A stretch of 64,000 bases of DNA from contig NZ_ACJM01000010.1 of the NCBI RefSeq assembly GCF_000174415.1, positions 62,001 to 126,000 on the forward strand. The letters run 5' to 3'. The notes below the pieces were generated by a model that worked only from the letters and a program-made list of their open reading frames with translations, was not told where the DNA came from and made no database searches. The position numbers and the translations under genes were made by a program. Origin of the DNA: Dethiobacter alkaliphilus AHT 1. GTDB lineage: Bacteria > Bacillota > Dethiobacteria > Dethiobacterales > Dethiobacteraceae. Position 1 is the first letter of the stretch; the number at the start of each line of letters is the position of its first letter. This document shows positions 28,502 through 32,056 of this stretch, one piece after another.

Positions 28502-28827
28502 CTTATAGTGCTACTTACGTAGCCTCTCCTTCCTATTTATGCTCTTCATTTTAGTTTCTCAGTTAAATATCTTTTATCAAAACCTTCAGCTTAATTACCC
28601 CATAGTCCGAGGTAACCCAGCTTGAGTTATAATGTTACCATAAATGATTCTTCTATTATTTTCTGTTTCCTTTACCCATTGGAAATATGTACGTTTCCAA
28701 CGTAATTTTTCCCCTTCCTCCAACGCGTTATCTCCCGCTACGAAGCCAAGCGCTAAATATAAAGCATGCTTAACAAACAACAGTATTTAAGCATGATATA
28801 ATATTGCCAAAGGAGGATGAAACTGTA
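28502..28827. other. Intergenic region between divergent genes
   Basis: About 325 bases holding the promoters of the U32 gene (minus) and the membrane protein gene (plus). A 61-codon TTG frame at 28595-28780 on the minus strand has no ribosome site and is not accepted as a gene. No RNA element recognised. Confidence 0.4.
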
Positions 28828-29889
28828 ATGAATCCTGTACCTCCCAGATTTCTTGTTTTAGCAGTATTATTAATTACTTTTTTCTACCCCTCACAGGCTC
28901 TGGCAAACGGCATGCCCGTACTATGGTGGCCCGGCAGTTTTCATGGACCTGTATTACCTGCCGATGATACACCCATTGGTATTCAGTCAGAAGTGCTGGA
29001 TATTACTTATGAGAAAGGCTCGAGGGATGCTGATGTGGCTGTCAGCTATGAACTGCTTAATCCCACAGATGAGGTGCAACATGTAGCTGTGCTTTTCCTC
29101 GGTGATATTCTCGGAGAAGGGGTCATAACACTTAACGAAGAAAGAGTCACTGCCCACACCGGCAGCATTAATATGGATACGGTGTACCCATCGTTTACAG
29201 ATGATGCCCAATTCATCTGGTACGATCCCTTCACGTCGGAGCAATACCAAAAACCGGAGGACTACCGCGGCTATCAACAATCAATAACAGGAGTCCCCTT
29301 CGAACTGGAATTACAACCGGGCACGCATTTACTGGAGGTTCGTTATCAAAATCCACTGGGCTATGATGAAACCCGTTTTCCCCATGGTACGCATCACTTA
29401 ACTTACCTGCTCCAACCAGCCTCCTATTGGCAATCCTTTAACAATTTGCAGATAAATGTCACCCTGCCCTCGGCCAGCTATCGGTTAGCAAGTTCACTGC
29501 CTCTGGAGAAAACCGGCTCCAGAACATGGTCGGCTACATTCTCCCAACTACCCGCAGAAGACTTACACATCTCCTTTATTAATACTGCAAACATGTGGCT
29601 CGGACCTTATTCAACCAGGGGAAATCTCTGGCTTTTGCTCCCAATTCTTACTTTAACTGTTTATTTGCTTTCAAAAAAGGTCCATACAATAAATACCAAA
29701 CCCGGACTGATTTTTCTTGCCCTTCTATCTGTTTTTACCGGCTGGATTGTCTGGTCCATTCTAACTTTGCCAATGCTCCCCTACCCCTTTACATTTTTAC
29801 AATACCCACTCCTGGCAATCTTTTTAATCTGGCTGTTTGCTATCCTGAAAAAAGCATATCTAAATTTAAATATCAGCATAACCTCTTAA
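28828..29889 (+). CDS. Exported/membrane protein of unknown function, 353 residues
   Basis: Not assigned to a family. An N-terminal signal-like helix ends in 'PSQALANGMP'. A large extracytoplasmic beta-rich region follows (about 30-260), with patterns such as 'VAVSYELLNPTDEVQHVAVLFLGD' and 'LLEVRYQNPLGYDE' that look like immunoglobulin-type domains. Three to four C-terminal membrane helices (about 270-350) end with a basic tail. It resembles bacterial surface proteins in which an external beta domain is held by C-terminal helices. ATG at 28828 follows AAAGGAGG by eleven bases; an upstream TTG precedes that site. Single-gene unit with its own terminator. Confidence 0.75.
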   Translation: MNPVPPRFLVLAVLLITFFYPSQALANGMPVLWWPGSFHGPVLPADDTPIGIQSEVLDITYEKGSRDADVAVSYELLNPTDEVQHVAVLFLGDILGEGVITLNEERVTAHTGSINMDTVYPSFTDDAQFIWYDPFTSEQYQKPEDYRGYQQSITGVPFELELQPGTHLLEVRYQNPLGYDETRFPHGTHHLTYLLQPASYWQSFNNLQINVTLPSASYRLASSLPLEKTGSRTWSATFSQLPAEDLHISFINTANMWLGPYSTRGNLWLLLPILTLTVYLLSKKVHTINTKPGLIFLALLSVFTGWIVWSILTLPMLPYPFTFLQYPLLAIFLIWLFAILKKAYLNLNISITS

Positions 29890-31172: not shown

Positions 31173-31269
31173 ATGCTCCCCCTAGTATGCTATAGTTTGT
31201 TTCACAACACAGCTGTCAGCATCACTTCCGTAACCCATCACCCCCGCTTATTAATTAGCCCCATAAAAA

Positions 31270-31376
31270 AAATACACTTTCGATAACCAGGCTGTCATGA
31301 CACAAAATGTGCCGTAGACCCTTAGCTTTGCGTCCCTGCTTTTCAACAGGTTTGCCATTATCCAGTGTGATATCAA
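31270..31376 (-). ncRNA. Cyclic-di-GMP-I (GEMM) riboswitch upstream of the chemoreceptor gene
   Basis: On the minus strand the RNA shows the class I c-di-GMP aptamer in order: 'GATAATGGCAAACC', a P2 hairpin with a GAAA-type loop, 'GGGACGCAAAGC', the tetraloop-receptor segment 'TAAGGGTCTACGGC', a P3 hairpin, then 'AGCCTGGTTATC', which pairs back to GATAA. The outer P1 stem extends with ACACT/AGTGT and AT/AT and is followed at once by eight T. P1 with that T tract resembles an intrinsic terminator, so ligand binding may turn the downstream gene off. The next gene on this strand is the chemoreceptor. Boundaries are approximate. Confidence 0.93.
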
Positions 31377-31494
31377 AAATTTCTATCTGTAAAGTAGGGC
31401 ATATATACCTTGTTAAAGTATAATTCCTCTTCCATATTTGGACAATATATCTCAAGACTTATTTTCACATATAAAAAGAGCACAAATTAAGCCT

Positions 31495-31542: not shown

Positions 31543-31569
31543 AACCACAGTGCTTAAACCACTGTGGTT
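31543..31569 (-). terminator. Intrinsic terminator
   Basis: AACCACAGTG / CACTGTGGTT with a T-rich tail on the minus strand, about 60 bases after the stop of the 31631 gene. Confidence 0.85.
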
Positions 31570-31630: not shown

Positions 31631-32056
31631 CTAGTTTTTACAAACGTCTGAATGTAAAAGATGTCGTGAGAAGAGTATTTCGTAGCTTCGAATTAAATGT
31701 TTAGTCTCTGCTTTGTCATGACTTATCTCTATTAAATACAAATAACATTTACGTGCCAGATCAACTTTATTATTTTCGTACTGCAACAGAGCAAAATTTC
31801 TTAGTTCATTGCAGAATTCATAATAGTCTGTAACAGCTTGCCGATACCCGTCTATCTTGCCTGTGTAATCAGGTGTTTTCCTATTTGCACAAGAGCAGTG
31901 GTTAATCAGGGTTTTATTATGATATGAACGAAGACCCTTAGTAATAATCTCATTTGGGATAAAAGATAAGTCTGCCTTAAAATACTCAATATTTAACTGT
32001 TGTGATTCTGATTCCGATCTCTCAAAGAACACCTTTTTGAATGTCCCAATAAACAT
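31631..32056 (-). CDS. Hypothetical protein, 141 residues
   Basis: Not recognised. A soluble, mostly helical protein. The C-terminal 70 residues ('VTDYYEFCNELRNFALLQYENNKVDLARKCYLYLIEISHDKAETKHLI') look like one TPR-type helical repeat pair. ATG after GGGGGTGGG and a clear terminator downstream support a real gene. It is AT-rich compared with the genes on either side and could be acquired. It lies between the chemoreceptor and an oxidoreductase, with no operon partner. Confidence 0.65.
   Translation of the reverse strand: MFIGTFKKVFFERSESESQQLNIEYFKADLSFIPNEIITKGLRSYHNKTLINHCSCANRKTPDYTGKIDGYRQAVTDYYEFCNELRNFALLQYENNKVDLARKCYLYLIEISHDKAETKHLIRSYEILFSRHLLHSDVCKN

Follow-up and report, generated by a model that had tools for sequence, protein, structure and literature searches.

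Expression platforms vary among c-di-GMP-I riboswitches and, to our knowledge, are poorly catalogued. In the Vc2 aptamer, C92 pairs with one guanine of c-di-GMP. The location of such an aptamer upstream of an mcp gene is already known from Bc1 of the Bacillus cereus group, an ON switch for transcription, in which two separate downstream terminators of Bc1-mcpE are unfolded by c-di-GMP (PMC11218506). Therefore, a chemoreceptor gene under a c-di-GMP-I aptamer need not be turned OFF by the ligand. Cd1 of C. difficile is an OFF switch of this class, in which aptamer and terminator coexist; its terminator hairpin is separate from the aptamer, and its antiterminator unfolds the ligand pocket (PMC9262584). 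The HMP-PP (thiS) riboswitch, which has another ligand and another aptamer, carries its aptamer inside the terminator hairpin, and its ligand prevents termination (PMC6478431). The aptamer class, its place before mcp genes and the embedding of aptamers in terminators are known already. No description of a c-di-GMP-I P1 stem serving as the terminator was found in the literature searched, the original GEMM papers lying outside its scope.

The window, which is the whole 64,000-nucleotide stretch of Dethiobacter alkaliphilus AHT 1 that was analysed, contains a c-di-GMP-I aptamer on the minus strand, upstream of a motility-related gene for a chemoreceptor (MCP) on the same strand (Table 1). The earlier note had read a complete GEMM-I aptamer here, and the Infernal search (cmscan) with RF01051 bears this out, because the match covers model positions 1-87 of 87 and lies well above the gathering score of 35 bits (E 2e-14). 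Every Rfam pair of P2 and P3 is standard in the cmscan alignment, and P2 has a GAAA tetraloop. Among the ligand contacts (Vc2 numbering), G20 and A47 are kept and C92 is replaced by U. A cGAMP (GEMM-Ib) riboswitch was rejected, because it needs A at position 20, where the window aptamer has G. Judged by its sequence, the element is a c-di-GMP-I riboswitch aptamer, presumably with c-di-GMP as its ligand. It resembles the Vc2/RF01051 type in its full-length covariance match, GAAA-looped P2, P3, core and motility-related target, but differs from it in the U at the position of C92, a 1x3 internal loop in P1 and a P1 that abuts a T-run.

The order of the elements on the minus strand is ACACU-G-GAUAAUGGCAAACC ... 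GGUUAUC-GAA-AGUGU-A-UUUUUUUU. The outer P1 stem, ACACU/AGUGU, is short, with G-C at two of its five pairs, and is parted from the window aptamer by the 1x3 internal loop (G31363 versus GAA). The T8 tract had been described as following the aptamer without a gap; it does lie next to P1, but a single A (31273) intervenes between the AGUGU strand and T8. Outer P1, one base before T8 and with a pair probability of about 0.55, has the form of an intrinsic terminator whose release is predicted. Unlike several paralogues, the window aptamer has no separate hairpin with a T-run on its 3' side. When the flanks were replaced by 20,000 pairs of dinucleotide-shuffled flanks, T8 appeared at the same place in 0.1% of the trials, and T8 together with a stem of 5 bp or more in 0.045%. 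This result indicates that the layout of P1 and T8 exceeds chance. The view that the terminator is built from the aptamer itself is likely to be right, given the stem, the T8 tract and the recurrence of the arrangement in relatives. Like Bc1-mcpE, this locus has a c-di-GMP-I aptamer before an mcp gene and putative terminator control, but it lacks a separate terminator (PMC11218506). It shares with Cd1 a terminator that can coexist with the bound aptamer and, as a prediction, the OFF logic, but P1 would take the place of the hairpin and no antiterminator stands above chance (PMC9262584). The aptamer inside a terminator hairpin is the feature shared with the HMP-PP riboswitch (PMC6478431).

Table 1. 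Features of the riboswitch locus in the window
Feature	Position	Strand	Basis
c-di-GMP-I (GEMM-I) aptamer	31279..31366	-	RF01051, 81.2 bits
Outer P1 5' strand ACACU	31364..31368	-	sequence; same ACACU/AGUGU in relative L118
GAUAA, can pair with UUAUC 31286-31282	31358..31362	-	folding, pair probability about 0.78-0.87
U at position of Vc2 C92	31283	-	cmscan alignment
Outer P1 3' strand AGUGU	31274..31278	-	sequence; folding, pair probability about 0.5-0.6
T8 tract, predicted intrinsic-terminator release point	31265..31272	-	sequence; shuffled flanks
Shine-Dalgarno AGGGGGAG	31176..31183	-	sequence
MCP, 399 aa	29973..31172	-	Pfam HAMP + MCPsignal; membrane segments read from sequence
Candidate promoter TTGTCC-17-TATACT	31417..31445	-	weak; such sites no commoner than in shuffles
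Terminator of upstream unit	31543..31569	-	10-pair stem, then T-rich tail

The genome contains ten c-di-GMP-I aptamers (72-88 bits), eight MCP-domain genes and 11 GGDEF matches. The window aptamer is the only one of the ten aptamer loci examined that precedes an MCP gene. Several of the paralogues (L001, L003, L005, L006 and L010) have a separate hairpin with a T-run on their 3' side. In L004 (1461-1620, contig C1), a P1 of CACC/GGUG is directly followed by T5, and this switch stands before a Tll0287-GGDEF protein; in L002, CUCC/GGAG followed by T5, as read by eye, precedes a transglutaminase-like protein. A further c-di-GMP-I aptamer, L008, has an unusual target, a UvrB-like gene that begins about 350 nt after it. 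Similar layouts are present in members of the same family: in L118, a stem identical to that of the window (ACACU/AGUGU) precedes T6; in L128, AACAC/GUGUU precedes T7; and in L126 and L139, the stems are similar and the T-run is looser. Genes for GGDEF proteins lie downstream of L004, L128 and L139, and the P1-plus-T-run switches of the latter two stand before PAS-GGDEF proteins.

When 84,980 species were scanned for aptamers with T7 within 8-24 nt after them, 68 loci were obtained, in Paenibacillus, Cohnella, Desulfotomaculum relatives, Chloroflexi MAGs and others. When the bases before T7 were paired with the 5' flank in 53 de-duplicated aptamers, the mean was 8.75, as compared with 7.64 (sd 0.40) for swapped partners, and only 3 of 1000 swaps reached 8.75. 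The flank-pairing effect across the T7 loci is real and modest. Some of the 68 loci are without a P1-type stem, and L109 and L110 (Anaerospora, Sporomusa) carry an ordinary local hairpin. In these two, GCCAGGUUGC of the aptamer is itself part of the terminator hairpin, an arrangement that resembles an ON switch. One of the 68 loci, L073, also precedes an MCP gene, and its P1 pairs poorly. Tandem c-di-GMP-I aptamers stand before a flgB-like gene at L115, and tandems are also present at G026:C56 and G055:C45.

The chemoreceptor had been placed about 95 bases downstream and described as having no external sensor domain, and both statements agree with our results: 92 nt separate T8 from its ATG (31172), and HAMP and MCPsignal alone exceed the Pfam cut-offs. 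As read from its sequence, the protein probably crosses the membrane twice, with a short loop between the two segments. Because the upstream unit ends at a terminator, the leader is probably part of a separate transcript, and the MCP gene looks monocistronic, because the next gene is on the opposite strand. The neighbouring ORFs at 31631-32056 (141 aa) and 28804-29889 (361 aa) have no Pfam match. An orthologue of the mcp gene with the same leader was found in none of 60 relatives, three of which gave partial matches of 39-52% identity. The claim that the switch links a sessile state to loss of taxis is an overreach for a genome in which eight genes encode MCP domains and one of ten aptamers precedes one.

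In the cmscan alignment, U31283 takes the place of the leading C in the conserved CC, which, mapped onto Vc2, we take to be position 92. The other nine aptamers of this genome have C at this position. A pattern search for both forms gave one site with U versus 73 with C in 98 genomes of the class, and the U form in three genomes versus the C form in 118 among 348 genomes of the phylum. By this count of sequences, a natural U92 is rare, yet not unique. Two more natural U92 aptamers are L155 and L156, in both of which the U extends the possible P1 pairing (GAUAA/UUGUC and CUGA/UCAG, respectively). The window aptamer also lacks a C-G pair beside the pocket (G31363) that is present in relatives. 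Natural variants at these contact positions reportedly retain useful affinity for c-di-GMP. U92 probably lowers the affinity of the window aptamer, which would then need more c-di-GMP than its paralogues do before it responds. C92 is less conserved than A47 (PMC9049102), and a G20A/C92U double mutant binds c-di-AMP (PMC7288161). The engineered C92U mutant of Vc2 has been crystallised (3MUR, 3UD3 and 3UD4 in the PDB, as listed in PMC10671752); the window aptamer is like it in having U at 92 with G20 kept, and differs from it in that its U92 is natural and able to pair within GAUAA/UUAUC.

Because U92 lets GAUAA pair with UUAUC, P1 can continue through the pocket when no ligand is bound, and folding predicts this pairing as the favoured ligand-free structure once P1 is transcribed. 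With a transcript assumed to begin at 31410, nearest-neighbour folding gives outer P1 a probability of 0.55-0.6 when unconstrained and of 0.54 under the bound-form constraint; other starts move these values either way. Opening of the pocket costs about 4 kcal/mol in the window RNA, as compared with 0.2-1.8 when L118 and L128 are folded with short 5' leads. This comparison, which covers L007, L118 and L128, is soft, because with a longer 5' lead L118 pays 3 kcal/mol too, and L118 and L128 fold otherwise. The model thus predicts no gain of outer P1 upon binding and gives an OFF switch no support. It does not exclude one either, because it has no term for stacking of the ligand on P1. A leader antiterminator, AUUUUUGAUA (31380-31371) with UAUCGAAAGU (31285-31276), was rejected, because its ten pairs are equalled in 548 of 1000 shuffled leaders.

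We propose, tentatively and with a probability of about 0.48, that P1 of the c-di-GMP-I aptamer is the terminator hairpin and is closed by c-di-GMP (OFF); termination, ligand and direction are all what we infer. Transcription would begin at a promoter between 31543 and 31366, and P2 and P3 would fold. c-di-GMP would then bind at the P1/P2/P3 junction and hold the 3' strand in the register of the bound form. As a result, ACACU/AGUGU would close during synthesis of the T8 tract, and the polymerase would stop before the chemoreceptor gene. OFF is favoured because the layout is common to C92 relatives before GGDEF genes, and because the terminator of Cd1 is known to coexist with its bound aptamer. 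The short stem, U92, the lost C-G pair, the cost of opening the pocket and the lack of an orthologue of the mcp leader count against it. Therefore, the claim that c-di-GMP lowers expression of the chemoreceptor stands in part: the architecture and the three GGDEF targets agree with it, but the equal outer-P1 probabilities, the longer ligand-free hairpin made by U92 and the ON direction of Bc1, the known mcp case, do not. The opposite direction is unlikely, but it draws on this very hairpin: the long ligand-free P1 would terminate, and the ligand would open GAUAA/UUAUC to permit read-through, as in HMP-PP riboswitches (PMC6478431) and with the outcome known for Bc1 (PMC11218506). The full pairing, which needs U at position 92 and is the favoured ligand-free fold, speaks for this reading. 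Against it, the P1-plus-T relatives with C92 cannot make the long hairpin, so that the group does not share this ON mechanism; furthermore, ACACU/AGUGU still lies beside T8 in the bound form.

It is similarly improbable that the aptamer, through the change to U92 and the loss of the C-G pair, has become a relic that binds little ligand and acts as a mostly ligand-independent attenuator, keeping the receptor level low. The rarity of U92 and the cost of pocket opening are consistent with such a relic, as is the lack, among the 60 relatives, of an orthologue that could reveal selection on the leader. The intact P2, P3 and remaining core, and a score of 81 bits within the paralogue range, are unlike free decay. 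More doubtful still is that the natural C92U change both alters the pocket, for weaker binding of c-di-GMP or for an A-containing dinucleotide, and makes the longer ligand-free hairpin, thereby reversing the OFF direction that the P1-terminator switch has in relatives. Least probable is that T8 is not a working terminator and that control, if any, is translational, through the 92 nt before the start codon. The stem is indeed short for a loop that is a whole aptamer, and a simple terminator scan, confined to short loops, does not list P1 with T8. Nevertheless, the 108 nt after T8 contain no structure beyond that of shuffles (z 0.78), and pairing of the 5' leader with the Shine-Dalgarno sequence (-15.0 kcal/mol) was rejected, because 109 of 1000 shuffled leaders do as well.

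If P1 is the terminator and c-di-GMP closes it, the layout without a separate terminator, which recurs across several groups of bacteria, would amount to a highly compact switch that is easily read from sequence. Its OFF direction before the GGDEF genes of L004, L128 and L139 would give simple negative feedback. In the window copy, the change at a ligand contact also alters the stem, and this copy may thus serve as a natural test of the coupling between aptamer and terminator.
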